In this document: piece by piece, positions 24,789 to 42,193 of the stretch
How positions within the stretch are numbered: the stretch's first letter is position 1
Layout of the letters: each line of letters starts with the position of its first letter
DNA from: Methanolobus vulcani
GTDB taxonomy: Archaea > Halobacteriota > Methanosarcinia > Methanosarcinales > Methanosarcinaceae
Length of the DNA: 64,000 nucleotides
Assembly (NCBI RefSeq): GCF_006546655.1
Contig: NZ_VIAQ01000006.1
Location: forward strand, 62,001-126,000
Direction: 5' to 3'
The notes under the pieces: model-generated
The model's database searches: none
Seen by the model: the letters and a program-made list of their open reading frames with translations, nothing else
Told to the model about the DNA's origin: nothing
Translations under genes and position numbers: made by a program

Positions 24789-24806
24789 AGCGATCCCGAA
24801 GGGATT
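24789..24806. repeat. Left attachment site of the integrative element
   Basis: An exact 18-bp copy of the tRNA-Arg 3' end without the rest of the tRNA. The bases flanking it on both sides differ from those at 42117-42134, so identity stops at the core. Confidence 0.82.
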
Positions 24807-24846
24807 ATTGAACTAAAATATATAATCCTAGACCACTTTTTACAAT

Positions 24847-26052
24847 GTGATGACTCGCAATGTAGACGATGTACACTCTTTTGAAACAGGGTTTATTCGT
24901 GCAAAGGAAAGAATAGAGAACGCAGGCATTTCACAGAGGAACAAGGATCTTATCAACAGGTTCATTGTCCACTGCAGAAGGGAAGGCCTGAAGAAAAGCA
25001 CGATAACCACATATGTTAATTTTCTCAGGTGGATGATTGAGAAGCTTGAAAAAATCGGATATACAAAGGATATTGACGAATTAGAACAAGATGACTTCGA
25101 TGAGTTCTTGATCTACCTTGAAGATGAGGAAGAAGCTTCACCAGGAACTATCCGGAACTACAAGAAAGTCACTAAAAAGTTTTTTCGATTCCTCACTGAT
25201 GATGATGTCCCTAAATGGGTAAGAAAGCTTAAGCTGGGACAAGTAGAGACCCACATACAACCCCAGGATCTTCCTGACAGCAAAGACATTGATAAGATGA
25301 TTGAGGTCTGCACGAATGCCAGAAATAGGGCAATAGTAGCTACTTTATACGACGGAGGATTTAGGCCAGGGGCTTTGGCATCGTGCCGAGTGGGCAGCGT
25401 GGAGTCAAACCAGTATAGCTCTATCATTTACCTGCCAAGGACAAGCAAGGCCAGGAAGACAACACCACCAAAAGGAATACCCCTCACATGGGCCTCCGGA
25501 TATCTGCAGCAATGGTTGGCTGTGCACCCCCTCAAGGATGATCCTTACGCTCCTCTGTGGGTTACTCTGGACAAGAACCAAACCGCACTGAGTTACAACA
25601 CATTTAGAAAGACAATCAAGGATATCGCCGTAAAGGCAGGCATTAAGAAAAGGTTCTATCCTTACCTGTTCAGACACAAAGCTGTTACAAACTGGATTCT
25701 TGATGGATACAACGAACAAGAGATCAAACATAGAGCTGGATGGTCAAAAGGATCCACACGGATGTTCCAGGTATATGCTAATTTCACAGACCAGGAGATC
25801 AACGATAGGATCTATGAGAAGTGTGGGTTGAAAACTGAGGATAAACGCCATATAACCCTCAAGAAATGCCCCAGGTGCAGTAGTGTGCTTAAGCCTAATG
25901 ATAGGTTCTGTTCACAATGTTCTCTTGTCCTGGACCATCAGGCACAAGATGAGATTGGCAAGTATGAGGCGAAGTTGCCGGAGATCCTGCAAATGATTAT
26001 GCAGAGTGAGAAAGCCAGAGAAATGCTGGCGAATATTCAGAAGGAAGTGTGA
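24847..26052 (+). CDS. Tyrosine recombinase integrase with C-terminal zinc ribbon
   Basis: The 401-residue protein has an N-terminal SAM-like core-binding domain (about 25-120) and a catalytic domain with Arg173 (GGFRPGAL), Arg276-His277 (YLFRHKAV), Trp299 and nucleophile Tyr310 (FQVYANF). The usual His of HxxR is Tyr273. A zinc ribbon CPRC...CSQC (341-358) follows, as in many methanogen integrases. It should catalyse integration and excision between the 18-bp att sites. GTG 24847 or ATG 24850 is the start; a TATA box (AAAATATATA, 24815-24824) suggests a leaderless transcript, and the promoter lies inside the element. Confidence 0.92.
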   Translation: MMTRNVDDVHSFETGFIRAKERIENAGISQRNKDLINRFIVHCRREGLKKSTITTYVNFLRWMIEKLEKIGYTKDIDELEQDDFDEFLIYLEDEEEASPGTIRNYKKVTKKFFRFLTDDDVPKWVRKLKLGQVETHIQPQDLPDSKDIDKMIEVCTNARNRAIVATLYDGGFRPGALASCRVGSVESNQYSSIIYLPRTSKARKTTPPKGIPLTWASGYLQQWLAVHPLKDDPYAPLWVTLDKNQTALSYNTFRKTIKDIAVKAGIKKRFYPYLFRHKAVTNWILDGYNEQEIKHRAGWSKGSTRMFQVYANFTDQEINDRIYEKCGLKTEDKRHITLKKCPRCSSVLKPNDRFCSQCSLVLDHQAQDEIGKYEAKLPEILQMIMQSEKAREMLANIQKEV

Positions 26053-26090
26053 TTTTTTTGAAATCATCCCCTTCGTTTTTTACGGGATCT

Positions 26091-26825: not shown

Positions 26826-26897
26826 AGTTAGTTTCACAGCCTACGTTATCAATCAATTAATAGAAATATTTTTCTAAATTTACAATTATTTCATAAT

Positions 26898-27698: not shown

Positions 27699-28198
27699 AC
27701 ACTTTTGGAATTAATATTGATGTCGTGGGGGGAAACGAGAAACGTTACATATCCACGCTATTTTTAAAGGCGGAACTGCCTGATTTGGCACTATATTGAA
27801 ACATGTGGAAGCATTGGAAAAACTCGGAAGTTATTGTTAGGTTTGGAATAAAAGGCAATTGTATTCATACCTCAAACTATTATATCAATTTTAAATATAT
27901 TACAGATTCTATATTACATTTTAAAAAAATATAATCCGTCAGTAAAGTATATAACTTAATAATAATATAAAGAAATCCATAATTTCTTCAGAATTACATC
28001 TGAAGACAAAAACGGAGCTGATATAAAACGAAACATACTCAACAATAAAACCACGTTGAATCCTCACTTTCAACCTGATGTTGCCTTGTCTTTGTTGTGT
28101 ACTTTCGTTGTGAACTCAAAACTATATAAGTATTGCGGATTTTCTCGATTTTTATAAATCGTACTCGATAGTAGTTGAAACACTTAACGGAGGTTATG
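27699..28198. other. 500-bp AT-rich gap without a supported gene
   Basis: Only promoter-like elements and short dyads are visible, including CTTCAGA-ATTACA-TCTGAAG at about 27986-28005 and a TATA-like ACTATATAAG near 28122-28131 that probably serves the gene at 28199. Confidence 0.45.
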
Positions 28199-28420
28199 AT
28201 GAACATATCATTAAAACAACCAGGTAACATTGCAGGAATGCTCATGTTCTTCGGAATACTGTCATATATTGCATCCTGTATATTTGCGGGCACCCTTCCA
28301 GAAGAAGGTATGGACTCCCTTGCAGGGTTTGGAATAGCTATATTCATACCCGGATTTTTAGTATGGTTTGGGTTCAGTGCCGTTTCTTGGATTAGAAATG
28401 TCAACAAAATAAAATGGTGA
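28199..28420 (+). CDS. Small two-helix membrane protein (73 residues)
   Basis: A very strong GGAGGT (28189-28194) precedes ATG 28199; an ATG at 28196 is too close and TTG 28175 lies upstream of the ribosome site. The protein has two hydrophobic segments (about 12-30 and 42-64) separated by LPEEGMDSLAG and ends in a basic tail. It is followed by a perfect hairpin terminator, so it is a single-gene unit. Function unknown. Confidence 0.65.
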   Translation: MNISLKQPGNIAGMLMFFGILSYIASCIFAGTLPEEGMDSLAGFGIAIFIPGFLVWFGFSAVSWIRNVNKIKW

Positions 28421-28432
28421 ACAACACCATAA

Positions 28433-28467
28433 ATGTATTCCTCTTTCTGAGGAATACATCCTATTTT
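28433..28467 (+). terminator. Perfect 11-bp hairpin terminator after the small membrane protein gene
   Basis: ATGTATTCCTC (28433-28443) and GAGGAATACAT (28449-28459) flank a 5-base loop, followed by CCTATTTTT. Confidence 0.7.
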
Positions 28468-28501
28468 TAGTAAACTGGTAAAACTATGTGGAGAAGTTTG
28501 T

Positions 28502-28948
28502 TTGAAAATAATTAGAGTATTGATTTTACTTGTTTTATTCATGCTAATCTCAGGATGTGTTTCTACAAATACACCAGAGGAAACGGTTACTTCGTTTGCC
28601 TATTCTGCAAGTATAGGTGACACCAATGCTTGTTATGGGCTGATGTCCAGTAAATACAAGAACAATACCACTTTTGAAATGTTTTCTGTCCACATACTTG
28701 ATGATGGGGACAACTGGTACGAATACAAGTTCATTGGTATAGTTGATGGTAGCAAGAAATTTACAAATGATACTGTTTTTCTTGATGTTGAATATGAAAA
28801 AGAGTCTGTGTCTGATAAGAATACAATGGGACTAACAAAGATACTTGGTAAAGCGATTGGTCAAGAGTATGTATTCAGAAAAAAAATTGAATTGGTAAAT
28901 GAGTCGGATGGTTGGAAAATTGAAGATTTCCACACTGAATTAAGGTGA
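28502..28948 (+). CDS. Small lipoprotein, possibly NTF2/DUF4878-like
   Basis: The 148-residue protein starts at TTG 28502 behind GGAG (28490-28493). The signal peptide ends in the lipobox ISGC. The exported part begins with ETVTSFAYSASIGDTNACYGLMSSKY, a pattern reminiscent of DUF4878-type NTF2-like lipoproteins, and finishes with ESDGWKIEDF. It should be anchored outside the membrane. The function of the family is unknown. It lies inside the integrative element as cargo. Confidence 0.65.
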   Translation: MKIIRVLILLVLFMLISGCVSTNTPEETVTSFAYSASIGDTNACYGLMSSKYKNNTTFEMFSVHILDDGDNWYEYKFIGIVDGSKKFTNDTVFLDVEYEKESVSDKNTMGLTKILGKAIGQEYVFRKKIELVNESDGWKIEDFHTELR

Positions 28949-28953
28949 AATAA

Positions 28954-29135
28954 TTACACAAGCTGCTCAAACTGGATCCTGTTGTCACCACCATATGATT
29001 CAATGTGTCAAACTCATTAAACAGGATGTCCTCCGGTATTCCATCAGGATAAGCAATACACTTCATTGGCCCAAGCTCATTGATCAGGTGCTTACATTTC
29101 ATGCATAATGGAGCCGGTCCTATCATCGATACCAC
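28954..29135 (-). pseudogene. Small Cys-rich protein gene with a frameshift near its 3' end
   Basis: The first frame encodes IGPAPLCMKCKHLIN, MKCIAYPDGIPEDILFN and then DTLNH, the pattern of a common small protein with CxxCKH and a CxAxPxGIPxxI segment. After H the frame runs into unrelated sequence, but the other frame continues sensibly as YGGDNRIQFEQLV and stops at 28954-28956. One missing base around 28990-29000 explains this. Length from ATG 29135 is 182 bases, one short of a whole number of codons. It is either a real inactivating mutation or a sequencing error. Confidence 0.65.
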
Positions 29136-29150
29136 CCCTTGATATTATTT

Positions 29151-30053
29151 TTAGGGTTTTTGATTTTTCTTTGATACTTTCTTCAAAAGCACTTTAATAT
29201 GATCTGTGAATTCTTTCTTTGCTTCTTGGTTGTGGACGACTTCGGTGATCATGTGGATTAATGGCATTCTTATTAAGTATGCAATGTCAATGCAATCTTC
29301 ATCTGATGAAGAATGTAACCCTACACTTAAAGCTTGATATAATATATCCATTGGGTTAGTTCCCTCGACATTTAGAGAAGGTGGCAAAATGTCTTTTACA
29401 AGCTTGATTTTATCTTTAGCTACTGGTTGGTGTCTTGTTTCGCTTAGTGCTTTTTCATACGCTTCTTTGTTTTCGTCGTTTTCAGGAATTATATGATAAA
29501 TATCATCTAATAATTGATCAATGATCAATTCTAAAATACGTCGATAATAGGAATATGCTGCAATTCCATAGCTCTGTGATTCACAAATTAAGCCTTTTTG
29601 ATATAACTCGGTATTTGATTCACCCAGTGTTTTGGAAACGTCTTTTGGAACTGAGATATCATAAGGAGGATATTGGCCAATTTTAATTAAGGATGTGAAG
29701 TTATCTACAATTTTTATTGAAACGTATTGGTGGTATTTACCACATCCTTTGCACAAGAAATCCAGATGTAAAACAGATCCGTCCATCTCTTCCCATGTTT
29801 TTCGATAATGCTCTGCCTCTGAAATATATACTTCCCCAGGCACATGGCCCTTAATATATGGTCGGTTGAGTAAATCATGGACTTCTTTTCCATATGTGGA
29901 CTCATAATGAACAAAAACCTGTTCTGATTTACATTCTTTGCAACGTATGTAAAGTGCAGTATCTTTGAATTCACTAAAAACGTTTGAGGGTTCAGCTTTA
30001 TATTTCCTATATAGTGGATAGCTTTCTAAAAAATCGACATAAAGTGTAGACAT
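29151..30053 (-). CDS. DUF4145-like protein with N-terminal zinc-binding Cys pairs
   Basis: The protein of about 300 residues has two Cys pairs (RCKECKSE near residue 37 and CKGCGKYH near residue 100) and a C-terminal helical domain ending in MDILYQALSVGLHSSSDEDCIDIA. That last stretch resembles the HEPN-like DUF4145 signature (alternating helix, lS..lH.....eC). HEPN/DUF4145 proteins are frequent accessory parts of restriction and defence loci. ATG 30053 is chosen because GGGTGA lies just before it; GTG 30062 overlaps that site. A role in defence or stress is inference. Confidence 0.7.
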   Translation of the reverse strand: MSTLYVDFLESYPLYRKYKAEPSNVFSEFKDTALYIRCKECKSEQVFVHYESTYGKEVHDLLNRPYIKGHVPGEVYISEAEHYRKTWEEMDGSVLHLDFLCKGCGKYHQYVSIKIVDNFTSLIKIGQYPPYDISVPKDVSKTLGESNTELYQKGLICESQSYGIAAYSYYRRILELIIDQLLDDIYHIIPENDENKEAYEKALSETRHQPVAKDKIKLVKDILPPSLNVEGTNPMDILYQALSVGLHSSSDEDCIDIAYLIRMPLIHMITEVVHNQEAKKEFTDHIKVLLKKVSKKNQKP

Positions 30054-30123
30054 TTTCTTCACCCGTAACTAATAATCTACAGATATTTCATCAAGTTCGC
30101 TGCCATCAAGGATATCGTTGTCT

Positions 30124-30549
30124 TCAGTCAGAGGAAGACTTGTCGTCGTCTTCTGAATCTTCCGATATCTCATCTGCTTCTTCCCATCTCTCTTCTTTAT
30201 ACGTTGCAATAACACGCAAATCGTCCTCTTCTCTGACAATCTCAACGTGTTCAGGTCCTAATTTCGTAATGAGAAACTTTGTTCCTGGTTCCCCATAATA
30301 GTGAATTTGTACATCGTCGGGGATGCTTGGCCAGTCATTAACAAACCGCCTATCCTTTGTTATTAAAGCGATGATGTCTTGGAAATAGTGTCCTTTCTTC
30401 TCAGATGCTTCTATTGCATGAAGCATTTGCACAGCTTTAATAACACCATCAGTTCTGTTTTTAATGAGCCCTTTATTCACCAACTCGTCCAGACTATCGA
30501 GTGTTTCTTGTGGCAGCCGGAAGCCACTTACTTTTTCTCTGTCAGCCAT
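30124..30549 (-). CDS. Ribbon-helix-helix DNA-binding protein with acidic tail
   Basis: Residues 1-45 (VSGFRLPQETLDSLDELVNKG) form a ribbon-helix-helix fold of CopG/MetJ type: one strand and two helices. The C-terminus is strongly acidic (DEISEDSEDDDKSSSD). It should act as a dimeric repressor. It is divergent from the AbrB-like gene at 30639, and TGGTTA-type palindromes lie between the two. A TATA-like GTATATAAAAC (minus strand, 30571-30581) is about 27 bases before its start, so the transcript is nearly leaderless. Confidence 0.72.
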   Translation of the reverse strand: MADREKVSGFRLPQETLDSLDELVNKGLIKNRTDGVIKAVQMLHAIEASEKKGHYFQDIIALITKDRRFVNDWPSIPDDVQIHYYGEPGTKFLITKLGPEHVEIVREEDDLRVIATYKEERWEEADEISEDSEDDDKSSSD

Positions 30550-30596
30550 GTGTTTAATTATGGGTCAGAAGTTTTATATACATTTGTACTAATGTA

Positions 30597-30626
30597 TGGT
30601 TAACCAATAACACAACCAAATGGTTA
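30597..30626. promoter_or_regulatory. Paired TGGTTA/TAACCA palindromes between divergent regulator genes
   Basis: TGGTTAACCA (30597-30606) is a perfect palindrome, and AACCAAATGGTTA (30614-30626) is a second, spaced dyad of the same half-site. Both lie in the divergent promoter of the RHH and AbrB-like genes, a position expected for autoregulatory operators. Confidence 0.55.
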
Positions 30627-30638
30627 AAGGTGACTGTT

Positions 30639-30794
30639 ATGTCTAAAAGAAAGATAAATCAGAACTCAGGAAACAGAATCTCAGTTTCAATCCCTGCTTA
30701 CCTCAGGGATAAATACGACCTCAAAAAAGGAACAACTGTTGACGTGACAGATGATGGGAATAGCATAGTTATCACTCCAATCAAGGAGCAATAA
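30639..30794 (+). CDS. AbrB/SpoVT-like swapped-hairpin DNA-binding protein (51 residues)
   Basis: The small protein reads NRISVSIPAYLRDKYDLKKG followed by TTVDVTDDGNSIVITPI, the compact AbrB/MazE-type beta-hairpin DNA-binding fold. AAAGGTGA precedes ATG 30639. It can act as an antitoxin or as a transcription switch. No partner toxin is directly adjacent, so a switch role opposite the divergent RHH gene is more likely. Too short for many annotation cut-offs. Confidence 0.75.
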   Translation: MSKRKINQNSGNRISVSIPAYLRDKYDLKKGTTVDVTDDGNSIVITPIKEQ

Positions 30795-30933
30795 TCAAGA
30801 AAAGATAATGCATTAAAGGGATCTCCGAGGCGGACCCCAGAAACCCACCATAATGACTCGCACTCATATGTATGGTTTCTGGCTTTATAAATTTTCGTCC
30901 TCGTGGGATTCCACAACCTAAGAGGAATTAGAA

Positions 30934-31092
30934 ATGAACCAGAAAGCATGGATTTGCATGAATTGTGGAAAAGTTGTTTATTTTCCAAGTGTAGCCCCTG
31001 AAACAAGAGAAGTAGTATGCAACCACTGCAATGCAGCTGCATTAGAAGAGATCCCACAAGAACAGCTCGCACCATTAGAGGTGACAGCATAA
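30934..31092 (+). CDS. Small zinc-ribbon protein (52 residues)
   Basis: The protein has two Cys pairs (ICMNCGK and VCNHCNA) about 19 residues apart, a typical rubredoxin-like zinc knuckle pair, followed by a short acidic tail. AGAGGAA precedes ATG 30934. Its TAA overlaps the next ATG by one base, so it is translationally coupled to 31092. It is the first of several very small zinc-binding genes in a row. The function is unknown; nucleic-acid or protein binding is likely. Confidence 0.7.
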   Translation: MNQKAWICMNCGKVVYFPSVAPETREVVCNHCNAAALEEIPQEQLAPLEVTA

Positions 31093-31394
31093 TGTTTGTC
31101 CTCGTCAAATCCCCGACCACAGGAGAAGAATTCTATGTAGATATCGGGGTGAGAGTCATAGAGACCCCAGCGGGTATCAACGTCACATCCCTGCAGGTAT
31201 ATGATGCTGCAGAGGTCGGTGAACTCGAGGGACAGATCACTAAACAGCTTCATGGCCACCACGTGAAGGACGGTGGGCATATGAAGCAGATTTTGAATGA
31301 TGTATTCAGAGTATCAACTGAAGCATGTCCTGATTTAGTGAGTACGGTTGAACAGAATCTGATGAATGCTGCAGGTGCGGAGGTGGGACTGTGA
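31092..31394 (+). CDS. Hypothetical protein (100 residues) in the zinc-ribbon gene run
   Basis: The protein begins MFVLVKSPTTGEEFYVDIGV and has no Cys pair, membrane segment or recognised motif. ATG 31092 is preferred over an earlier in-frame start inside the zinc-ribbon gene because of the TAATG coupling. The stop overlaps the following GTG by 4 bases. It belongs to the compact plus-strand replication and regulation module of the element. Confidence 0.65.
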   Translation: MFVLVKSPTTGEEFYVDIGVRVIETPAGINVTSLQVYDAAEVGELEGQITKQLHGHHVKDGGHMKQILNDVFRVSTEACPDLVSTVEQNLMNAAGAEVGL

Positions 31395-31720
31395 GTGAAA
31401 GAAAACGTGCTCATTGTCCCAACTGTGGATCTCTGACAATTGACTGGAAGCAGATTGAAGGAAGGTGGAAATGTCGCCAATGCGGATGGAAAGGATATCA
31501 ACCAGTGTACAAGTCACAGGAATCATGGGAGATAACCAAACAGGATAACACCAACTGGCTAAAACAACTCTATGATCTCCACAGGGAACACCCTGAGTAC
31601 AACAAATCCGATCTACGCAAATATGGCATGATGGGAGAGGGTACAGTGAATCGCTACTGGAAGATGTTCGTTACTGGCAAAATCCATGTTATCAGGCCAT
31701 GGGGCGAGGTGGGTATATGA
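31391..31720 (+). CDS. Zinc-ribbon plus helix-turn-helix-like protein
   Basis: The 109-residue protein has HCPNCGS ... KCRQCGWKGY at residues 8-35, a zinc ribbon, then a helical part with LYDLHREHPEYNKSDLRKYG and GEGTVNRYWKMF that looks like a winged or simple HTH. It starts at GTG 31391, overlapping the upstream gene by 4 bases, and overlaps the next ATG by 4 bases. A DNA-binding regulator of the element is likely. Confidence 0.7.
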   Translation: MSERKRAHCPNCGSLTIDWKQIEGRWKCRQCGWKGYQPVYKSQESWEITKQDNTNWLKQLYDLHREHPEYNKSDLRKYGMMGEGTVNRYWKMFVTGKIHVIRPWGEVGI

Positions 31721-31803
31721 AAATGAAACAAAGGTGCGGTCGATGTGGCCGCCTTCTTCCACATTGTGGTCAGTGTAAGAGCTGCAGAGGGAGGAGGAAA
31801 TGA
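31717..31803 (+). CDS. 28-residue zinc-knuckle micropeptide
   Basis: ATG 31717 overlaps the upstream stop (ATGA). The peptide has four Cys in two CxxC pairs (CGRCGRLLPHCGQCKSC) and a basic tail RGRRK. The overlap, the perfect Cys spacing and the position at the end of a coupled gene run support translation despite the tiny size. It would bind one zinc ion and probably nucleic acid. Confidence 0.6.
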   Translation: MKMKQRCGRCGRLLPHCGQCKSCRGRRK

Positions 31804-31835
31804 CCAGGGATAGTTTAATGATTTTTCAACTTTCC

Positions 31836-31843
31836 TTTATATA
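31836..31843 (+). promoter_or_regulatory. TATA box before the small RHH gene
   Basis: TTTATATA lies 45 bases upstream of ATG 31888, predicting a leader of about 20 bases that contains the GGAGG ribosome site. Confidence 0.55.
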
Positions 31844-31887
31844 CGATTAATAAAAAAATAACAATATCTGATACGGAGGACACAGCG

Positions 31888-32013
31888 ATGGACGACTGGA
31901 AACACATACTTGTCAAGAAATCCACACATGATAAAATCAGGCAGGAAGCGGAACGCAAAGGGATGAAGATTTACGCACTTGTTGATCACGCATTTCCTGG
32001 GAAAGATGACTGA
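31888..32013 (+). CDS. Small ribbon-helix-helix-like protein (41 residues)
   Basis: The protein reads HILVKKSTHDKIRQEAERKG followed by MKIYALVDHAF, a strand-helix-helix arrangement of the Arc/CopG type. A strong GGAGG precedes ATG 31888, and a TATA box is at 31836. It is likely a DNA-binding regulator located just before the replication gene and the repeat-rich gap. It may control primase-helicase expression or plasmid copy number (inference). Confidence 0.68.
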   Translation: MDDWKHILVKKSTHDKIRQEAERKGMKIYALVDHAFPGKDD

Positions 32014-32392
32014 TGACACAAAGAATGCGTTTGTTATCACTAACGATTAAAAAACATTGATTAACGCGGTGTGAAATAGATTAAAACAATAATCAGAAAG
32101 CCACAGGAGTGTTCGAGCACCCCTGAAGCTTAGAACAGTAATACAAAGAACAAAGTTTTGCCGACGACGTTCCCAATGGTATTACCTTAAATTTACCATT
32201 GTTAATTGTCTGTTAATAACGCTGTTGGTATGACAATATGTCATAACAAAATGTATCCTGTTTTGAGCGTGTGGCTTTCGGGAAGTCGCATATGAACGAA
32301 TCCAACAGTGAAAAAAGAGTTTTGTGGGGCAGATGCCCCCTGAACAAACATATAACCACCATCGTACGACTCAACGGAGGTCACTTTTTACT
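32014..32392. other. Dyad-rich intergenic region upstream of the replication gene
   Basis: No gene is seen. The region holds a hairpin CAGGAGTG-TTCGAG-CACCCCTG (32104-32125, one mismatch), the dyad TATGACA-ATA-TGTCATA (32229-32245), and a sequence at 32130-32167 that recurs imperfectly at 36498-36534. GGAGGT for the next gene is at its right end. It could be an origin or control region. Confidence 0.5.
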
Positions 32393-32581
32393 ATGACTAC
32401 AATGGCATATATTAGCAGTGGCTCTAGCTCCGATGATCTCCAGGCACTGAAAGAGAATCCATTGATTCAGGAGTATGCATCCATGGACGATGAGATTTAC
32501 AACCTGATCAAAGCAACTAATCCAACGCTATTGATGTTTGTAGATCTTGCCAAGAAGATTGTGAGTGGTGGGAATGAATGA
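32393..32581 (+). CDS. Small acidic protein upstream of the primase-helicase (62 residues)
   Basis: ATG 32393 follows GGAGGT (32375-32380), which excludes the longer frame from 32324. The protein has a Ser-rich start and a helical acidic body (DDLQALKENPLIQEYASMDD). It overlaps the primase-helicase by 4 bases (ATGA), so the two are translated together. It may be a regulatory or accessory subunit. No homology recognised. Confidence 0.65.
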   Translation: MTTMAYISSGSSSDDLQALKENPLIQEYASMDDEIYNLIKATNPTLLMFVDLAKKIVSGGNE

Positions 32582-35500
32582 GTCCTGCATGTAACAGGGA
32601 TGTCATTGAAGATATCAAATCAAAAATAGACATCGTGGACCTCGTAGGTGAAACTGTCCAGTTGAAGCAAAAGGGAGCTAGCTACAGAGGTGCAACCTCT
32701 ACAAGTTCCAAGTCCGGAGCATCTCTCATTGTGGATCCACAATTGCAGATGTATAAGAACTTCGCAGAAGATGACGGTGGAGATATCTTCAACTGGATAT
32801 CCTACCGAGAAGGCCTAGACATCGACTCAGACTTCCCGAAGATACTCGAGATAGCAGCTGAGAAGGCAGGAGTGGTCCTGGAACACCAGAGCCAAGAAGA
32901 TCTTACTGAAAAGGGCCTGATTCTTTCATTTCTCCGTGCAGCTGCAGGATACTACCACAGCCAGCTAACAGATGAATGTCGTGATTACATCCATAACACA
33001 TGGGGTATCAGTGACAAGATGATTGATGAGCTCCAGATAGGTTGGGCCCCTGGTAACAGTCGCCTGCAGAGAGAGATGGCAGATCTGTTCCCATCCGATG
33101 TGATGGAAATGTCTGGTCTATTTCACGTCTCCGGAAACAGGAAACTCAGAGATGTCTTCCGGGGCTGTATTATTTTCCCATACTGGAAAGGTGGGAAGGT
33201 TGTTTATTTCATCGGCAGAGATCCTAAATGGAACAAAGACAGCACCGGTCCAAAATACTTCAAGCAGCTGGTGCATTCCGAGCAAAGACCACATATCAGC
33301 AAGGTCATTGACAACTCGGTGTTCTATGGGGAGGACTCCATTAAAAGAGCAGATTCGGTCATAATAACTGAAGGCGTGACCGACTGCATAAAGGTTCTCC
33401 AGGAAGGTCTGCCATGTATTTCTCCTGTAACTGTTCGCATAAAAGAAGAACAAAAGGAGTATGCTTATGATCTCATTAAAACCAAGTCCGAGGTCATAAT
33501 CTGTAACGACAACGAAGACAACGAAACGGGAAAGAATGGGGCTATAGCAACTGCAGAATACCTTGAGCACAAGGGGGTTCAAGTAAGCTTGATAGAGCTT
33601 CCAAGGCCAAATGATGTGGATAAAATAGACCTGGCTGAGTACCTGCAGGAGAACACCAAAGAAGACTTCCTGCAGCTGGAGTCTAACAATGTCTGGGAGA
33701 TCAAACTAAATTCACAAAATGTCCCTGAAGGCAACGTGGAGAAGGCCAGAACTGTAAAGAGATTCATTCTGAACGATCTGAAACTGATGGATTCTTCCAT
33801 TCGAGATATATTCATTCGTAATGATGTCCGGAAATACTTCGACCTGAGCAAGACGGACATGAACACTATTCTGAAATCTGTCAGGTTCAATGATGATGAG
33901 ATCACCCAAGAAGACGACCAGGATTTCTTCACTGTCCGCGGTAAGCTTCGTGTGAAGAAGCTCGGTGAGTACGTGATGTCATTGGCTAGGTACATCACCT
34001 TTGATGATACAAAGAGCATCTACGTTTATCGAAATGGAGTGTATGTTCCTCGCGGAGAAGACACAATTGCAAGGATAGTACAGACCTCTCTGGGGGATGC
34101 ATCCAAGAAGCATCACATTTCTGAGATCATCAATTATGTGCAGCTGGAAACGCTGACACCAAGGTCAAAGATCAATCATGACATCAACAAGATCAATATC
34201 CTCAACGGCCTGTATAATTTGAATACTGGCCAGCTGGATCCACATTCACCCGACTACATTTCTATTGTACAGCTACCAATCACATACGATCCCGATGCGA
34301 CATGTCCTGCAGTTGACAAGTTCATCTCAGAGGTTCTTGAGGAAAAGTACCAAAGTGTGATCTATGAGATCCTTGGTTACTGCATGATACCAGACACACG
34401 GATCGAGAAGTCTGTGATGTTCCTGGGGAAAGGTGCCAACGGAAAGTCAGTGATGCTCAACATGTTCGGTGAGTTCCTGGGATCCCACAATGTGGCAGCT
34501 GAATCCCTGCACATGCTTGAAAAGGATCCTTACTCTCTTGCAGAACTCTACGGAAAGCTGGCCAACATCTTTCCGGATCTAGCATCCGGAGCACTCTATG
34601 AGAATTCAACCTTCAAAATGTTGACAGGCAACGAAAAGGAGCTTAGAGCACAAAGAAAGTATGAGCATCCGTTCAAATTCAGGAACACGGCCAGGCTGGT
34701 ATTCAGTGCAAATGAACTTCCACCTGTCCCGGGACATGACTTTGCATACTTCCGGAGATGGATCCTGCTGAAGTTCCCATACACATTTGAAGGGAAGAAA
34801 GCCGACAAGGGTCTGATAGATAAACTGACGACTCCAGAGGAGCTTTCGGGGCTGTTCAATAGGTGTGTGGTGGCTTTGAGAGCTTTGTTGGCCAGGGGCG
34901 AGTACAGCTACGATATGACGACAGATGAAGTCATGAAGATGTACAAGGTCAACTCTGACCCGATTGCAGCATTTGCAGATGAGGTGGTGGTATTCGCAGA
35001 GAAGCACACTCCAAAAAAGGCAATGTTTAGTGAGTATGTAGAATGGTGCAAATCTAACGGGATAGATCCAGCAGCTGAGAATATATTTGCCAAACGTTTC
35101 AAGAAACTAGGATATGTACCAGGCAGGGAACCAACTGGTGACAGGCCGTATGTTTGGGAGAACTGCACAATCAAAGGCCAATCCGTCTGGGTTAAAGAAA
35201 ACAACCCAGACGGCAAAAACCAAGAGCAAGATGTATCTCCGTCTAACTGTCTGGGTTTATCCTCTAATTGTAATGTAGTACAAAATGTAAATAAGAAAGA
35301 TAGTGAAAATAATTACACGTATATAAACAATAGAGAAATAACCCAGGAACCCAGACGGATTGAATGTGAACAATCTCTCCTGCAATCGAATACTTCTTGT
35401 CCGGGTTCTCGTCGGGGTTCAGACATCAGTTTTTCACTTGGAGAAAAAATGAATCTCTTTAGACAAATCTCTAAACATTCAAACAATCTGCAAGAACTTG

Positions 35501-35613
35501 TCGCAAACTCTCGAGCAGCTGGTATAGAGGATCCATGGGAGATCATGGACAAGATGGAATCATCGGGGGAATTCGTACGAATATCACAGACAGAGTTCAA
35601 GATGGTGAGTTGA
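32578..35613 (+). CDS. Fused primase-helicase: CHC2-like region without zinc ligands, Toprim domain, SF3 (D5/P4-type) helicase
   Basis: The 1011-residue protein is the element's replication protein. Residues 5-100 align with DnaG-type CHC2 modules (VIEDIKSKIDIVDLVGETV, DGGDIFNWI) but no Cys or His ligand remains. A Toprim domain follows with ITEGVTD (E265, D269) and DNED (311-314). The SF3 helicase has D5_N-like sequence, Walker A GKGANGKS (617-624), Walker B NIFPDL and the sensor stretch ARLVFSANELP. The last 200 residues are low-complexity and then helical. It should prime and unwind DNA at the element's origin. It is coupled to the small gene upstream and abuts the next one. Confidence 0.9.
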   Translation: MSPACNRDVIEDIKSKIDIVDLVGETVQLKQKGASYRGATSTSSKSGASLIVDPQLQMYKNFAEDDGGDIFNWISYREGLDIDSDFPKILEIAAEKAGVVLEHQSQEDLTEKGLILSFLRAAAGYYHSQLTDECRDYIHNTWGISDKMIDELQIGWAPGNSRLQREMADLFPSDVMEMSGLFHVSGNRKLRDVFRGCIIFPYWKGGKVVYFIGRDPKWNKDSTGPKYFKQLVHSEQRPHISKVIDNSVFYGEDSIKRADSVIITEGVTDCIKVLQEGLPCISPVTVRIKEEQKEYAYDLIKTKSEVIICNDNEDNETGKNGAIATAEYLEHKGVQVSLIELPRPNDVDKIDLAEYLQENTKEDFLQLESNNVWEIKLNSQNVPEGNVEKARTVKRFILNDLKLMDSSIRDIFIRNDVRKYFDLSKTDMNTILKSVRFNDDEITQEDDQDFFTVRGKLRVKKLGEYVMSLARYITFDDTKSIYVYRNGVYVPRGEDTIARIVQTSLGDASKKHHISEIINYVQLETLTPRSKINHDINKINILNGLYNLNTGQLDPHSPDYISIVQLPITYDPDATCPAVDKFISEVLEEKYQSVIYEILGYCMIPDTRIEKSVMFLGKGANGKSVMLNMFGEFLGSHNVAAESLHMLEKDPYSLAELYGKLANIFPDLASGALYENSTFKMLTGNEKELRAQRKYEHPFKFRNTARLVFSANELPPVPGHDFAYFRRWILLKFPYTFEGKKADKGLIDKLTTPEELSGLFNRCVVALRALLARGEYSYDMTTDEVMKMYKVNSDPIAAFADEVVVFAEKHTPKKAMFSEYVEWCKSNGIDPAAENIFAKRFKKLGYVPGREPTGDRPYVWENCTIKGQSVWVKENNPDGKNQEQDVSPSNCLGLSSNCNVVQNVNKKDSENNYTYINNREITQEPRRIECEQSLLQSNTSCPGSRRGSDISFSLGEKMNLFRQISKHSNNLQELVANSRAAGIEDPWEIMDKMESSGEFVRISQTEFKMVS

Positions 35614-36039
35614 ATGGAGTCCAAAAAGGAACATTCTGGTGTTTTCTCTATGGCATCCGCATGCTTCTATCAGTCGTCAGAAGAGATTCCACTCTCTGAT
35701 ATGATGGAGATCAAAGCACAGCACGTTTTACATGGTGAACATAGCTTGGAAGAACAGGCTCTTCTCCTCTACAAGATAGATGTGTCACAAGAAGATCCAC
35801 TTGGTTTTTACACCTGCCAGGATTTGCCGGATAAAGACACGGAGTTTATCCAGTGCCTTAATGCAGATCTGAAACACTGGCTCATATTCTATGGGGCTCC
35901 GGAACCCTGCACTCTTGCGTGGTGGACCGTTGTAGTGCATCACAGGGATAGAACAACCCAGGAGAAATGCGCTTCAATATACCACCGGTATGTAGGCCTG
36001 TTTGATGAAATGTGTCCTAATGAGGAAGTGAAAACATGA
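35614..36039 (+). CDS. Hypothetical protein (141 residues) in the replication operon
   Basis: The protein follows the primase-helicase without a gap (TGA then ATG). It contains LACF/Trp-rich segments such as HWLIFYGAPEPCTLAWWTVV and EKCASIYHRYVGLF. No membrane signal or known motif is seen. Its position suggests a replication or copy-number accessory role, which is unproven. It overlaps the next gene by 4 bases. Confidence 0.62.
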   Translation: MESKKEHSGVFSMASACFYQSSEEIPLSDMMEIKAQHVLHGEHSLEEQALLLYKIDVSQEDPLGFYTCQDLPDKDTEFIQCLNADLKHWLIFYGAPEPCTLAWWTVVVHHRDRTTQEKCASIYHRYVGLFDEMCPNEEVKT

Positions 36040-36224
36040 GAAACATCCAGGACCTAACACCAAGTGAACGAGATAGGATCCTACAGGATGCTGATAGGCG
36101 GTGTTACAGTGAAATTGCCGATGACATGGATGTATCTGTCTACACTGTGAGAAGGGTGATCCGAAAGCATAATAGAAAGATGCTGAAGCGATATGATCAT
36201 ACCAGGGATGATGAAGTTCTATGA
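36036..36224 (+). CDS. Small helix-turn-helix protein (62 residues)
   Basis: The sequence SERDRILQDADRRCYSEIAD followed by DMDVSVYTVRRVIRKHNRKM is a simple HTH of the homeodomain-like type. It is the last gene of the primase operon and lies immediately upstream of the iteron-like repeats at 36256-36467, so it is a candidate origin-binding or repressor protein. Confidence 0.68.
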   Translation: MRNIQDLTPSERDRILQDADRRCYSEIADDMDVSVYTVRRVIRKHNRKMLKRYDHTRDDEVL

Positions 36225-36255
36225 TTATGCGTTTGTAGGTTCATAAATGCGTAAA

Positions 36256-36467
36256 TATTCGAATCAGAACCGAATCGATTCGAATTCAAAAATGCCGTAA
36301 AATGTCGCAAAATGTCACATAATTATGCAGTTTATAAGCCATTATTCAATATGCATCGGCATAATTTTAAAAACGTAGGTTACCCTGACATTAGCAAGGT
36401 ACACTGTTTAAGTATTCGAATCGAAAATTGAGCACATATAGAGCGAACAATCGGATTGATTCGAAAC
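36256..36467. repeat. Iteron-like repeat region, candidate replication origin of the element
   Basis: TATTCGAATC occurs at 36256-36265 and 36413-36422. Related sites are GAATCGATTCGAATTC (36272-36287) and GATTGATTCGAAAC (36454-36467). Between them lie three tandem 10-mers, AAAATGCCGT, AAAATGTCGC and AAAATGTCAC (36289-36318). The region is non-coding, AT-rich and directly downstream of the replication and HTH genes. Confidence 0.6.
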
Positions 36468-36515
36468 ATGGGCGAAACCAATAACAGTATATCATTTTAG
36501 AACAATACTAAGAAC

Positions 36516-36773
36516 GTGTTCGTTTGCCGACGAGATAATGAATTAAGAGTATGCACTTCTGAGTGCGAATACCGTTCAGAATGCCAAGAGCGGAGACTAT
36601 CTCTTTTACTTTACACGGCAAACTTCTCATGCATTTCTCCGAAACAAAAAGATGCCGATGTCCCTGCTACTAAATTCAACGTTATCGGTATGAAGCCAGA
36701 CTCCTACATCAACAATGCTGTGAGCCATGACGGACTTAGTACAATTGATTTGCAGTCGTCCAGACTGCGATAA
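36516..36773 (+). CDS. Cys-rich small protein (85 residues), uncertain start
   Basis: GTG 36516 opens a frame with CRRDNELRVCTSECEYRSEC near the start, four closely spaced Cys that could bind zinc or an iron-sulfur cluster. The rest has no recognisable motif. The start region coincides with a repeat shared with 32130-32167, so the true start is uncertain. It overlaps the next gene by 47 bases in another frame, which lowers confidence in its C-terminus. Confidence 0.45.
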   Translation: MFVCRRDNELRVCTSECEYRSECQERRLSLLLYTANFSCISPKQKDADVPATKFNVIGMKPDSYINNAVSHDGLSTIDLQSSRLR

Positions 36774-36912
36774 CCAAATAATCACAACTCGGAAACAGAA
36801 GAGGGAGCTGTTCTCGGTCTATTACATTAAATACGGCCAGATAGAACTGCCTTATTGTTCAAAAGAGTGTCAAGAAAAGCATATGGAGGAGTTACAGGGT
36901 GGTATAGGTTGA
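36727..36912 (+). CDS. Small zinc-finger protein (61 residues)
   Basis: The protein has CSRPDCDN and, 36 residues on, YCSKECQEKH, a treble-clef-like CxxxxC...CxxxC layout. It starts at ATG 36727 inside the end of the upstream frame. It is the last small gene before the SIR2 gene. DNA or protein binding is likely; function unknown. Confidence 0.6.
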   Translation: MTDLVQLICSRPDCDNQIITTRKQKRELFSVYYIKYGQIELPYCSKECQEKHMEELQGGIG

Positions 36913-36940
36913 TGTGAGTGATTAAGTTAATTAAAAAAGA

Positions 36941-36982
36941 TTTTATTCAGTAAGTACATTCAATTGAGTTGTTTGAATAAAA
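36941..36982. promoter_or_regulatory. Inverted repeat just upstream of the SIR2 gene
   Basis: TTTTATTCA (36941-36949) and TGAATAAAA (36974-36982) form perfect 9-bp arms 24 bases apart, ending 22 bases before ATG 37005. Position and symmetry suit an operator that keeps the gene silent, but no regulator is identified. Confidence 0.4.
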
Positions 36983-37004
36983 CCAAAACAATGGAGAATG
37001 TATA

Positions 37005-40000
37005 ATGCCTGCTTTCGTTATCAACGGCCCGGATATTCCAGAGAAGCTTTTAGAAGCTCATGAAGGAGGAAAAGTTATCTTTTTTTGTGGTGCAGGTATT
37101 TCCTATCCAGCAAACCTTCCTGGCTTTGAGGACCTAGTTGGCCAAATATATGCTGACCTTCATTTAACAATGACATCTGTAGAAGAACAAGCATATGAAA
37201 GCAAGCGGTATGATACAACATTAGATTTATTGGAGCGTCGCCATCCTGGTAAACGTCTTGCAGTCAGAAAAGCATTAGCTAGTGTCCTCGACATCTCACA
37301 GGTTAATAAAGATGCTATGGTGACACACAAATCTCTGATTCAATTAGCTACTAATCGAACTGATAATAAAGTTAGACTGGTTACAACCAATTTTGACAGA
37401 CTTTTCCAACAAGTGATCTCAAAAGATAGTTTACCTATTCCGCCTTATTCTGCTCCTTTTTTACCCATTCCTAAAAAGAGCCGCTGGGATGGAATTGTGT
37501 ATCTTCACGGATTGCTACCTGATTCTATAGATGAAATTGCACTTAATAGGCTTGTGATTACGAGTGGAGATTTTGGTTTGGCATATCTTGCCGAACGATG
37601 GGCATCTCGTTTTGTTACTGAGTTATTTAGGCAGTATACAGTTTGCTTTGTAGGATACAGCCTCAACGATCCGGTAATGCGTTACATGATGGATGCACTT
37701 GCAGCGGATGAGTTGCTTGGCGAAAGCCGACCAGAAGCTTTTGCTTTTGTAGATTATTGCAAAAAGGAAAGAGAAAAGACGAAGAGTGAATGGGAAATGA
37801 AAGGCGTTACTCCTCTGCTCTATGAGGTACCTGTTGCGGATAAGGGCAATCATTCTGCACTCCACGATACCTTAAGAGAATGGGCCGCTACATACCGTGA
37901 TGGTGTTCAAGGTAAAGAAATGATTATCTCACAGCACGTAAGCAACCCGCCAAATGCTCCATCAAAAACTGATTATGTTGTCGGGAGAGTATTATGGGCA
38001 CTAACAGATGAGTTAGCCGCGAAACATTTTGCTAATCTTAATCCTGTTCCTCCGCTAGAATGGTTGGGTCCTCTATCAGAGAAGCAGTTTGAATACGACG
38101 ATTTATTGCGGTTTGGTGTTGCAACTGGGTGCAATGAAATCAATGATATACAATTTAGTATCCTTCATCGTCCATCTCCACATACATGCTCACCGTGGAT
38201 GCGTGTTGTTGATGATGGAAGCCAAAGTAGCTCTCTAGATGGCGTAATGTTACACTTATTACATTGGCTCACACGACACCTTAACGATCCTAACCTAATT
38301 ATTTGGCTTGCCAACCAAGGTGATTGTTTACATGAACGTTTCATCGGCTTGATTCTCAGACGACTTGAGGAGTTAGATCACTTTGTAGCAAATAATGAAA
38401 AGGAGAAAATTGATTTTATTCTTGCTAACGCACCTAATGCTATTCCACGCCCAGCAATGAAGACCCTTTGGAGACTCTTTATAGCAGGAAAAATCAAACT
38501 ACACTCCCACATAAATCCCCAAAGCTTTGGTTTATATGACTGGATTGGTTCCCTCAAAAGAGAGGGGTTAACACCTTCTTTAAGGATGCAATTGCGTGAA
38601 CATTTAGCACCGTGTGTAGCTTTGAGATCTTCTTTAAATTTATTTGAGAATATACAGGTCCAATCACAGTCATTGAGAATTAAAGACTTGGTCAATTGGA
38701 AACTTGTATTAAACAGTAATTATGTGCATTCGGTTTTAAATGATTTATCCCAAATCCCGGCTTTTCAGGAAGGTTTGCCCAGCCTCTTGCAAGATTCCAC
38801 AGTGCTTTTGCGGGATGCTATGGATTTGATGCGAGAGTTAGAAGGTGCCAATGAGCACAGTGACTTGTCCTATATCCACCGCCCTTCTATCAGTGACCAT
38901 CCCCAAAATGGTGATTTCTATGATTGGACAGCTTTGATTACTCTTGTTAGAGATTCATGGATAGCAACTGTACAAGACAATACTGTCGTAGCAAAAAATA
39001 CTGCAGAAAATTGGTGGTTACAACCTTACCCGATTTTCAAAAGATTGGCTATGTTTGCAGCTACATATGGTGATATAATTTCACAAAAGAAAGCTCTTAA
39101 CTGGTTACTGGAGGATAATTGTTGGTGGTTATGGTCAAGTGAGACACGACGTGAAGCAATACGTTTAGTAGTTTATTTAGCTCAAATATTAGATGTTCCT
39201 GAGATTGTTGAATTAGAAAAAGCAATTTTAGCTGGCCCCCTACGAGAAATGTTCAGAGGTACTCTTAAGGAAGAAGAGTGGATTCGCATTGTGGATAAAG
39301 ATATATGGCTCCTCCTTACTAAGTTTGGTGATGCTGGTGGAAAGTGGAGTGAAACAGCCAATGCTAGGTTAAGTGAATTGAATAAAAAATACCCTGATTG
39401 GAAACTGGAGGAAGATGAAAAAGATGAGTTCACATTTAGAATAATGGACAGTGATGAATTACATGAATATTCCCATTCCCCCCAGGATATGTCTGAGCTC
39501 ATCATGTGGCTAAAGAAAACAGTTGATCGTCGGGGGGATGATGATTGGCAGCAACGCTGTCGTGAAGACTTCGATACTACATCACATGCACTGCTTGCGT
39601 TGGCTAGACAAAACACATGGCCGGTTGAACGTTGGAAGCAGGCTCTTATGGGTTGGTCTGAAGATAAAAATAACAATACCTCATGGAGTATCATTGGGCC
39701 AGTTTTGAACAAAGCACCTGATGAAATAATAAGTTCACTGCCTAATGAAATTGGTCGATGGCTACAGGTAATTGCTAAATCCTTCAATGGCCAGGAAAAG
39801 ATTTTCTTAAACCTTTGTCAGCGTATTCTTGAACAGGAATATATCGATGAAATAGAGTTTAATGATTCCTTGAATACTGCTATCAATCGACCAGTGGGTA
39901 TCGTGACAGAAGCACTGTTACAATGGTGGTTTAGACGTAAGCTGGAAGATGGCCAAGGTCTTCCAGCAGAACTCAAGCCGATTTTCACTAGTATATGTAA

Positions 40001-40805
40001 TACAAAAATAGACAAATATGTCTATGGTCGCGTATTACTGGCATCGCATGCGGTAACGCTATACCGGGTGGATTCGAATTGGGCAAAAGAGCATCTGATC
40101 CCTTTGTTCGATTGGAACTCGTCAACAGAAGCTAACATGGCGTGGGAAGGATTCCTTTGGTCCCCGCGTTTATATCGCCCTTTCATGGCGGATGTTACAA
40201 GATCATTTTTAGATGGAGCTATGCATTATGGGGAACTTGGAAACTGCGGAGAACGATATGCTGCATTTTTAACATTCGTTGCACTTGATCACGGTGATGT
40301 TTTTACAAATGAAGAGTTAGCTGATGCCGTTGGATCCTTACCAATAAATGGCTTAGAAAACGCAGCTCGAACATTAATACGTGCAATTGAAGGGGCACAT
40401 GATAAACGCAAAGAATATTGGACTAATCGTGTAATTCCATATTTACACAACATCTGGCCAAGAAATATGGCTTTCAAGGAATCAAATATACCAGATATCT
40501 TTGCAGAATTATGTGTAGCTGCAGAAGAAGCATTTCCTTTGGCACTTGAAGAATTGCAAGACCAGATAAAACTCCCGAATCATTCATATTATCTATTTGA
40601 TCTTATGTTCAAGAAGAAACTCTGCACCAATTTCCCAGAAGAGTGCCTTTATTTCTTGAATTTAGTTGTTGATAATCAAACTCAGTGGCTTCCTAAAGAG
40701 TTCAAAGTTTGCCTAGATGAAATAAAGAAAGCAAGTCCACAATTAGCTACTGATCATCGTTTTATTCTTTTGTCGGAGTTAGCCAGAAGATATGCTAGAT
40801 ACTAA
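37005..40805 (+). CDS. SIR2-domain protein of 1266 residues, candidate anti-phage NADase (DSR / SIR2-DUF4020-like)
   Basis: The N-terminal SIR2 domain shows FCGAGIS (27-33), TTNFD (N129, D131), YLHG (H168) and FVGYSLNDP (215-223). These are the NAD-binding and catalytic features of defence-type sirtuins, which deplete NAD when triggered. The opening INGPDIPEKLLEAHEGGKV and the very long alpha-helical remainder (about 1000 residues, Trp-rich) fit the SIR2 plus DUF4020 architecture as I recall it. GGAG at 36993-36996 precedes ATG 37005. The gene ends next to the HEPN-like gene at the tRNA end of the element, a usual cargo position. Abortive-infection activity is inferred. Confidence 0.8.
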   Translation: MPAFVINGPDIPEKLLEAHEGGKVIFFCGAGISYPANLPGFEDLVGQIYADLHLTMTSVEEQAYESKRYDTTLDLLERRHPGKRLAVRKALASVLDISQVNKDAMVTHKSLIQLATNRTDNKVRLVTTNFDRLFQQVISKDSLPIPPYSAPFLPIPKKSRWDGIVYLHGLLPDSIDEIALNRLVITSGDFGLAYLAERWASRFVTELFRQYTVCFVGYSLNDPVMRYMMDALAADELLGESRPEAFAFVDYCKKEREKTKSEWEMKGVTPLLYEVPVADKGNHSALHDTLREWAATYRDGVQGKEMIISQHVSNPPNAPSKTDYVVGRVLWALTDELAAKHFANLNPVPPLEWLGPLSEKQFEYDDLLRFGVATGCNEINDIQFSILHRPSPHTCSPWMRVVDDGSQSSSLDGVMLHLLHWLTRHLNDPNLIIWLANQGDCLHERFIGLILRRLEELDHFVANNEKEKIDFILANAPNAIPRPAMKTLWRLFIAGKIKLHSHINPQSFGLYDWIGSLKREGLTPSLRMQLREHLAPCVALRSSLNLFENIQVQSQSLRIKDLVNWKLVLNSNYVHSVLNDLSQIPAFQEGLPSLLQDSTVLLRDAMDLMRELEGANEHSDLSYIHRPSISDHPQNGDFYDWTALITLVRDSWIATVQDNTVVAKNTAENWWLQPYPIFKRLAMFAATYGDIISQKKALNWLLEDNCWWLWSSETRREAIRLVVYLAQILDVPEIVELEKAILAGPLREMFRGTLKEEEWIRIVDKDIWLLLTKFGDAGGKWSETANARLSELNKKYPDWKLEEDEKDEFTFRIMDSDELHEYSHSPQDMSELIMWLKKTVDRRGDDDWQQRCREDFDTTSHALLALARQNTWPVERWKQALMGWSEDKNNNTSWSIIGPVLNKAPDEIISSLPNEIGRWLQVIAKSFNGQEKIFLNLCQRILEQEYIDEIEFNDSLNTAINRPVGIVTEALLQWWFRRKLEDGQGLPAELKPIFTSICNTKIDKYVYGRVLLASHAVTLYRVDSNWAKEHLIPLFDWNSSTEANMAWEGFLWSPRLYRPFMADVTRSFLDGAMHYGELGNCGERYAAFLTFVALDHGDVFTNEELADAVGSLPINGLENAARTLIRAIEGAHDKRKEYWTNRVIPYLHNIWPRNMAFKESNIPDIFAELCVAAEEAFPLALEELQDQIKLPNHSYYLFDLMFKKKLCTNFPEECLYFLNLVVDNQTQWLPKEFKVCLDEIKKASPQLATDHRFILLSELARRYARY

Positions 40806-41034
40806 AAATGAAACACAATTCAAATTAAATTATACTTTTCCAATCCATAAAAAAGGTAAAATCATGTTGATGAGGTGGCTGTGTGCCAGTAGGAAGAAAT
40901 CGACAGCACATTTATAGATGTTTTTGTCTGGCTTTAAATAACTAATGTAAAGCCATAGTGGAGAGTTCGAACTGCAGTACGGATCAACGTTGTAAAGAAA
41001 ACGTTATATATTCATAGCCTGCCTATTCAGGCAA

Positions 41035-41985
41035 ATGACAAGCACTGAAGTTCCTCAGATTTTTCTCGATATTGCAAAACAAGATCTAAAATCATCCCAA
41101 TTATTATTTGAAAATAAATGTTATCCACAGTCCATTTTTCTATTTCAACAATCGGTTGAAAAAGCGGTGAAATCGATGTCGATATTCACAGGCACTACAA
41201 ATCTCAAAAAGGCGGCAGATAAGATTGGACACAAAGGGGTCACATTCTACAGAATGTTGAATCTAAACTGGATGGAAAATCTCAAATCGATGAGAAAGAA
41301 CAAACAAAAAACAGAAGCATTTGCACAAATGCTTGATGTTGATTCGACGGGTATGGACATTATTGAAGTTGAAAATGACGCGAAAGACTTAGACATTTGG
41401 ACACTTACTTATATCAAAAATACACAAGATCACGTTGAGCTTTCAGATAATGAATTGACTGATATTCTAGCCCATATTTCAGAAATTGAAGAAGAGTATA
41501 TTTATGCACTTTCAGAAGGAACAGACTTCATTAAAACGGATGAAGAATGGCTACAATTTATTGAAGAAGTAACTGAATTTATAAAAAAGGGAGTTCAGTA
41601 TTACGTTGAAAACCCAGAAGAAGTTGATGTTGATATTCCTGAAAATATATCCGAAATTGTGGAAGAAGAATTTAAAAGAGTGTTTGGAGCTACCGATAAA
41701 GAAACCTGGAATCAGTTTGCCAATTTGATTCTAGACAGCCTATACATAAATCATCTCTTGTTTGGTTTATCAATAATAATGGATCCACATGCAATCAGTG
41801 CAAGATATCCAGATGAAGACTTCAATCCTATGGAGTTTTACACTCTTGAATTACCACTTGTAACTAAGTTGCCTAAAATAACAGCTATTACAGAGGGTTT
41901 ACTGGTGTTGTTAGACAATTTCTATTCCAGGGTCCAAGGGTCTGAATTGAGACGTCTTGCTCTTGAAAATAACACAGATATTTGA
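41035..41985 (+). CDS. HEPN-domain-like protein
   Basis: The 316-residue acidic protein starts with IAKQDLKSSQLLFENKCYPQ followed by SIFLFQQSVEKAVKSM, a clear HEPN-type helical start (amine-binding/nucleotide-associated family), and then DKIGHKGVTF. No unambiguous Rx4-6H RNase motif is seen in the right place, so catalysis is uncertain. TTATATAT at 41004-41011 lies 28 bases before ATG 41035, giving a leaderless transcript separate from the SIR2 gene. Location beside a SIR2 gene and attR suggests a defence or toxin role. Confidence 0.68.
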   Translation: MTSTEVPQIFLDIAKQDLKSSQLLFENKCYPQSIFLFQQSVEKAVKSMSIFTGTTNLKKAADKIGHKGVTFYRMLNLNWMENLKSMRKNKQKTEAFAQMLDVDSTGMDIIEVENDAKDLDIWTLTYIKNTQDHVELSDNELTDILAHISEIEEEYIYALSEGTDFIKTDEEWLQFIEEVTEFIKKGVQYYVENPEEVDVDIPENISEIVEEEFKRVFGATDKETWNQFANLILDSLYINHLLFGLSIIMDPHAISARYPDEDFNPMEFYTLELPLVTKLPKITAITEGLLVLLDNFYSRVQGSELRRLALENNTDI

Positions 41986-42116
41986 ATATCATTGTTGCTT
42001 CAATGAAGCCACAATAAGAATGTGATTAAGCTGATTGACCACTACAACATTGTATGTTATATGCATTAAATAAAAAAGAAAATGCCTTATCAAAATAGGA
42101 CTATTGAAAAATATGT

Positions 42117-42134
42117 AGCGATCCCGAAGGGATT
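42117..42134. repeat. Right attachment site, embedded in tRNA-Arg 3' end
   Basis: The exact 18-bp copy of the site at 24789-24806. It covers the discriminator, the acceptor 3' strand, the T-stem 3' side and part of the T-loop of tRNA-Arg, so insertion keeps the tRNA intact. Confidence 0.82.
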
Positions 42135-42193
42135 TGAACCCCTGACCCTCGGGTTAGAAGCCCGATGCTATATCCTGGCTAAGCCACGGGACC
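42119..42193 (-). tRNA. tRNA-Arg (anticodon TCT)
   Basis: Read on the minus strand, acceptor GGTCCCG pairs with CGGGATC plus discriminator G. The anticodon stem TCGGG/CCCGA holds loop CTTCTAA (anticodon TCT). The T-arm is AGGGG-TTCAAAT-CCCTT. Length is 75 bases with no intron and no encoded CCA. A TATA-like element (minus-strand TTTTATACTA, about 42230-42240) precedes it. It is the integration target of the element to its left. Confidence 0.92.

Follow-up and report, generated by a model that had tools for sequence, protein, structure and literature searches.

A CHC2-like primase-helicase without zinc ligands in an element at tRNA-Arg of Methanolobus vulcani, probably a metal-free DnaG-type primase

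The element and its primase-helicase gene

Analysis of the window (the whole 64-kb stretch of Methanolobus vulcani DNA under study) has revealed an element of 17.3 kb (24789-42134) that is bounded at each end by an exact 18-bp copy of the tRNA-Arg 3' end. The features of this element are listed in Table 1. Genes for ParB/methyltransferase and for the terminase small subunit, both caudoviral, were not found within the window, and the element could be a satellite or plasmid-like element. A defence gene and a gene for a HEPN-domain protein are also located in it. The primase-helicase gene is preceded by the gene of a small Cys-free protein, and four elements carry a gene of this family (about 55 residues) ahead of that of the Cys-less primase, two of them with an overlap at the primase start. 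In this element type, the family is a more consistent neighbour than the zinc ribbons considered below. Relatedness between the two families of about 50 residues found upstream of the primases was not demonstrable.

Table 1. Features of the element and of its primase-helicase (window coordinates)
Feature	Position	Strand	Remarks
Left att copy AGCGATCCCGAAGGGATT	24789..24806	.	exact 18-bp repeat of tRNA-Arg 3' end
Tyrosine integrase, beside left att copy	24847..26052	+	PF00589 E 3e-14
Small Cys4 protein	30934..31092	+	zinc donor candidate, not supported
Small zinc-ribbon protein	31391..31720	+	zinc donor candidate, not supported
Small Cys-free protein	32324..32581	+	stop overlaps primase start; relatives upstream in L111, L112, L113
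CHC2-like/DNAG_N/Toprim/SF3 primase-helicase	32578..35613	+	ORF, 1011 aa
CHC2-like domain without zinc ligands, residues 6-100	32593..32877	+	PF01807; AF2 model and Foldseek
First former ligand pair, residues 39-43 ATSTS	32692..32706	+	CPFH / CPNH in Zn-binding relatives
Second former ligand pair, residues 61-64 NFAE	32758..32769	+	CFGC in Zn-binding relatives
DNAG_N, residues 129-228, with R214, K226 and window-only R197C	32962..33261	+	PF08275 E 2.6e-9
Toprim catalytic domain, residues 260-350, with E265, D269, D311, E313	33355..33627	+	PF13155 E 4.7e-6; Pfam Toprim span 262-349
SF3 helicase region D5_N/DUF5906/Pox_D5, residues 508-866	34099..35175	+	TIGR01613 E 2.6e-56
Small Cys-rich (MYND-like) protein	36727..36912	+	zinc donor candidate, not supported
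DSR1-type SIR2 defence gene	37005..40805	+	PADLOC Dsr1, 1453 bits
HEPN-domain protein, after the DSR1-type gene	41035..41985		
Right att copy	42117..42134	.	at 3' end of tRNA-Arg(TCT) 42118-42193 (-)

The N-terminal part of the primase-helicase (residues 7-102) matched PF01807 with 45.3 bits (E 8e-12) against a Pfam cut-off of 24.9, so that the CHC2 module is real and not a chance match, and it is the sole CHC2 domain of the whole genome. The DNAG_N and Toprim domains follow with the conserved basic and acidic residues of a DnaG-type core, the second acid of the DxD pair being Glu. The SF3 half has a Walker A motif (GKGANGKS, 617-624) and the SANELP motif (710-715), and the protein scored 190.7 bits with TIGR01613 (primase_Cterm, P4 family) against an NCBIfam cut-off of 108.7. 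The claim of the original prediction that the catalytic residues of both Toprim and SF3 domains are kept was confirmed by these residues and motifs. The NCBIfam equivalog model of dnaG (TIGR01391) matched residues 6-406 with 139.2 bits, below its cut-off of 283.6, and by this measure the protein is related to bacterial DnaG and is not its orthologue. At residue 197, 63 of the 64 relatives examined have Arg and the window copy alone has Cys, so that this individual copy could be impaired.

Ligand loss, fold and conservation among relatives

In the alignment to Aquifex DnaG, C-P-F-H corresponds to T40-S41-T42-S43 and C-F-G-C to N61-F-A-E64, which bears out the positions originally predicted for both ligand pairs (TSTS at 40-43 in place of CPFH, and the CxxC position starting at N61). 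Judging from relatives whose loop has one extra residue (CPNHxSxSHRSL; HPVHGSTSG), the first ligand pair may alternatively lie at A39/T42. Whichever register is taken, there is no Cys, His, Asp or Glu from G38 to V52, and none of the four ligands of the Cys-His-Cys-Cys set is present. The predicted CHC2-like N-terminus devoid of zinc ligands is real on both counts, the PF01807 score and the lack of Cys or His at any ligand position, and the domain is best classified as a PF01807 homologue that is not a zinc-binding member of the family. No consistent substitute zinc ribbon in cis emerged when the rest of the Cys-less proteins was searched for CxxC motifs. Gain of a serine loop (SxSxxS) to replace zinc was also considered and dropped, since the Zn-intact CPNHxSxSHRSL relatives have the same serines.

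A profile of 15 homologues matched the PDB sequences 1d0q, the zinc-binding domain of DnaG in isolation (E 8e-13), and 2au3 (E 3e-29). The AlphaFold2 model obtained with the profile alignment (pLDDT 88.7) matched 2au3 (E 3.7e-21) and 1d0q (TM 0.79 over the target, rmsd 2.0 A) in Foldseek; AlphaFold2 ignores metals and leans on homology, so that the model cannot show the stability of a zinc-free domain. A fold unrelated to the DnaG zinc-binding domain, which would have spoken against the original prediction, is contradicted by this superposition.

The ligands are also missing in relatives that are 30-78% identical, from Methanolobus, Methanococcoides, Methanosarcina and other Methanosarcinaceae (Methanosarcinales), with L018, in which one Cys is kept, as the exception among the Methanosarcinales relatives. 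The former ligand positions are now mostly occupied by small polar residues (A/T, T/S, N/D, E/N/G), and the non-ligand positions of the motif are conserved (L29, G38, S49, L50, V52, Q57, Y/W59, G68, D69). The 17 archaeal and the 17 myxobacterial-type Cys-less sequences retain the catalytic residues E265, D269, D311, E/D313, R214 and K226, and so do 30 Zn-intact ones, with a single conservative change (R at 226). Among eight close sequences, pN/pS was 0.23 in the CHC2 domain compared with 0.21 in the catalytic core, values that are rough because synonymous sites are near saturation; by this estimate, purifying selection on the CHC2 domain is the same as that on the catalytic core.

A viral Cys-less relative on the IMG/VR contig L102 has lost nearly all of the first knuckle loop (YRGAADWPSLIAW) and still has PSL and GGD. 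Homologous primase genes with in-frame stops were found in L009/L113 (G139) and L014 (G165), so that some copies of the family are decaying. The Archaeoglobales relatives show HPVH ... CFRC, possibly a four-ligand His/Cys form. The Omnitrophota MAG contig L096 hardly differs from the archaeal L026; it is perhaps a binning contamination, and for this reason a spread of the archaeal clade into bacteria is not claimed. A Zn-intact CHC2-Toprim-AAA protein is encoded in L068, L069, L070 and L073 by DNA of about 10 kb that also contains AAA_24, DUF669 and RecD-like genes and is 94-95% identical across records assigned to different phyla, apparently a recent and promiscuous mobile element. In the phage and plasmid collections only SF3-only or Toprim-only matches were found, none of them covering 80% of the protein.

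A second loss in Myxococcota and a viral slot shared with AEP primases

Proteins of Myxococcota (L032-L048 and others) have the same domain order as the window protein and have also lost the three Cys ligands. They differ from it in that SPFHPEKTPSF is kept (followed by WHDFSNGG..GGD), with the His present in 9 of 17, and in that the SF3 match is absent in the two proteins scanned. The model of a myxobacterial protein (pLDDT 89.8) also superposes on 1d0q (TMt 0.83). In a tree of the catalytic part only, a single clade of all Cys-less sequences was rejected (AU p 7.7e-6) because the intact sequences L052, L013 and L049 fall inside Cys-less groups, a result that is driven by these few sequences in a tree with weakly supported deep branches. 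This rejection implies that zinc was lost at least twice, and the different loop types of the archaeal and myxobacterial proteins agree with separate losses.

In head-tailed proviruses of Methanolobus (L106-L108, L171-L181), three kinds of replication protein occupy one syntenic slot, which precedes zinc ribbon, ParB/methyltransferase and terminase genes. The occupants are the Cys-less Toprim-SF3 protein (L106-L108), a Prim-Pol fused to a DUF5906 SF3 helicase (L172, L176, L180) and AEP-TOTE (L171, L173, L174, L177, L181). The SF3 halves of the Toprim and Prim-Pol versions are homologous (27% identity, E 3e-30). This alternation beside a homologous helicase argues that the Cys-less CHC2-Toprim half would work as a primase.

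Interpretation and comparison with known primases

In DnaG-type primases, the zinc ribbon is considered to be the template-reading part and to depend on its metal. In the protein described here, the hydrophobic sheet (L29, Y36, S49-L50-V52, Q57, Y59) and the GGD motif are retained and the CHC2 fold would be kept without metal. The metal-free domain would present the template, as a single strand, to the Toprim active site, which is intact, with the C-terminal SF3 motor unwinding and loading at the origin. A looser choice of initiation sites is a plausible consequence. The protein is probably the replicative primase-helicase of the element, a DnaG-type enzyme with a metal-free CHC2 fold for template binding. 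With somewhat less confidence, we also consider it likely that it represents a metal-free DnaG-type subfamily that primes, that had two or more separate origins (in mobile elements and viruses of Methanosarcinales, and in Myxococcota) and whose archaeal form swaps with AEP primases in a viral slot. The loss conserved in relatives and its repetition in myxobacteria make the domain look like a working metal-free version and not like a broken gene.

The main alternative, although unlikely, is a protein with a dead primase half, which would serve solely as SF3 helicase or initiator and whose N-terminus would be vestigial like that of metazoan Twinkle. Human Twinkle, in which the same cysteines are missing, neither binds metal nor primes; Twinkle is among the weaker Foldseek matches, and the R197C change of the window copy points in the same direction. 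However, metazoan Twinkle has also lost residues of motifs IV and V, whereas every Cys-less group retains its Toprim and basic residues. The equal purifying selection on both domains also speaks against a dead primase, as does the AEP primase fused to a homologous SF3 helicase that holds the same slot in sibling proviruses.

The original prediction had also suggested that the zinc function might be supplied in trans by nearby micropeptides, an explanation now considered highly improbable. It was at first favoured, because a zinc-ribbon gene overlaps the primase stop or follows it within 50 bases in L101, L106, L107, L109 and L110, and is found after the primase in five of the six Methanolobus viral relatives (background rates of zinc-ribbon genes were taken from loci only). 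In addition, two Cys4 micropeptides are encoded at most 1.7 kb upstream, the filter applied having picked out no others in the window, and the zinc-finger and polymerase domains of plant Twinkle complement in trans when separate. The whole-genome search and the comparison of slots reversed this view. The ribbon also follows the AEP-TOTE and Prim-Pol-SF3 proteins of sibling proviruses, so that it is a component of the viral replication slot rather than a companion of the zinc loss, and six genomes that lack a Cys-less primase also contain strong matches to its family. The family has no match in the genome of the window; no ribbon was seen next to L108, L111 or L112, and none that was convincing near the myxobacterial Cys-less copies or four other archaeal ones. 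A BLAST of the window neighbours found no homologue of the three small Cys proteins of Table 1 at related loci, and the CHC2-like domain itself persists and is conserved.

Binding of metal through other ligands, such as N/D61, E64 or a nearby Asp, also appears very improbable. Asn or Asp occupies the third ligand position in nearly every Cys-less sequence, archaeal or myxobacterial, but such a residue at the former knuckle can instead cap a turn by hydrogen bonds, and since the archaeal first pair has no usual metal ligand and the residue at 64 varies (E, N, G, T, S), there is no conserved set of four donors. Simple decay of the window copy, to which the loss of all four ligands and the change R197C could be attributed, is scarcely credible with an intact frame, the same losses in all close homologues, as the alignment foreseen in the original prediction has revealed, and the low pN/pS of the domain. 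The conserved loss, the purifying selection, the intact Toprim residues and the second loss indicate that the loss of ligands is not decay, and the reading as a metal-free primase is retained below.

If this reading is true, a conserved and twice-evolved metal-free version with an intact active site separates the role of the fold from that of zinc, and the Cys-less and Cys-intact relatives constitute natural pairs in which template choice can be tested directly. In addition, archaeal viruses here provide a clear case of Toprim and AEP primases that interchange beside the same type of SF3 helicase. No description of a Cys-less Toprim primase group was found in the open-licence literature, and no biochemistry for any member of it. 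Archaeal DnaG is not known to have a CHC2 domain. In vitro priming has been reported for Sulfolobus DnaG, as cited in PMC4227792. Template recognition requires the zinc domain in T7 gp4, DnaG and plant Twinkle (PMC3610141; PMC5429622; PMC10557236). Metal-free precedents are found in other folds or families, such as Cren7/Sul7, derived from zinc ribbons through loss of metal chelation (PMC5906684), and the Cys-less Topo_C_Rpt repeats of topoisomerases (PMC9369019).

Among known systems, bacterial DnaG, with its zinc-binding and RNA polymerase domains (2au3, 1d0q, 1dd9), shares with the window protein the CHC2/DNAG_N/Toprim order, the fold and the catalytic residues, whereas the window protein has no zinc ligands and carries a fused SF3 helicase in place of the DnaB-binding domain. 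The SF3 primase-helicases of phages and plasmids (TIGR01613; Prim-Pol-DUF5906) have the same kind of helicase half as the window protein, whose own is homologous to that of the Prim-Pol version in the sibling proviruses, but the primase half of the window protein is of Toprim and not of AEP type. Metazoan Twinkle, also a Toprim primase-helicase whose zinc-binding domain is without cysteines, is a counter-precedent in which cysteines, other primase motifs and activity were lost together (PMC3610141; PMC8688847), and its helicase is of the T7 gp4 type. The PrimPol of phage NrS-1 is an active primase in which a serine-rich loop replaces the zinc finger (PMC8718748), although it belongs to the AEP superfamily and its zinc motif, located in the active site, is unrelated to CHC2.
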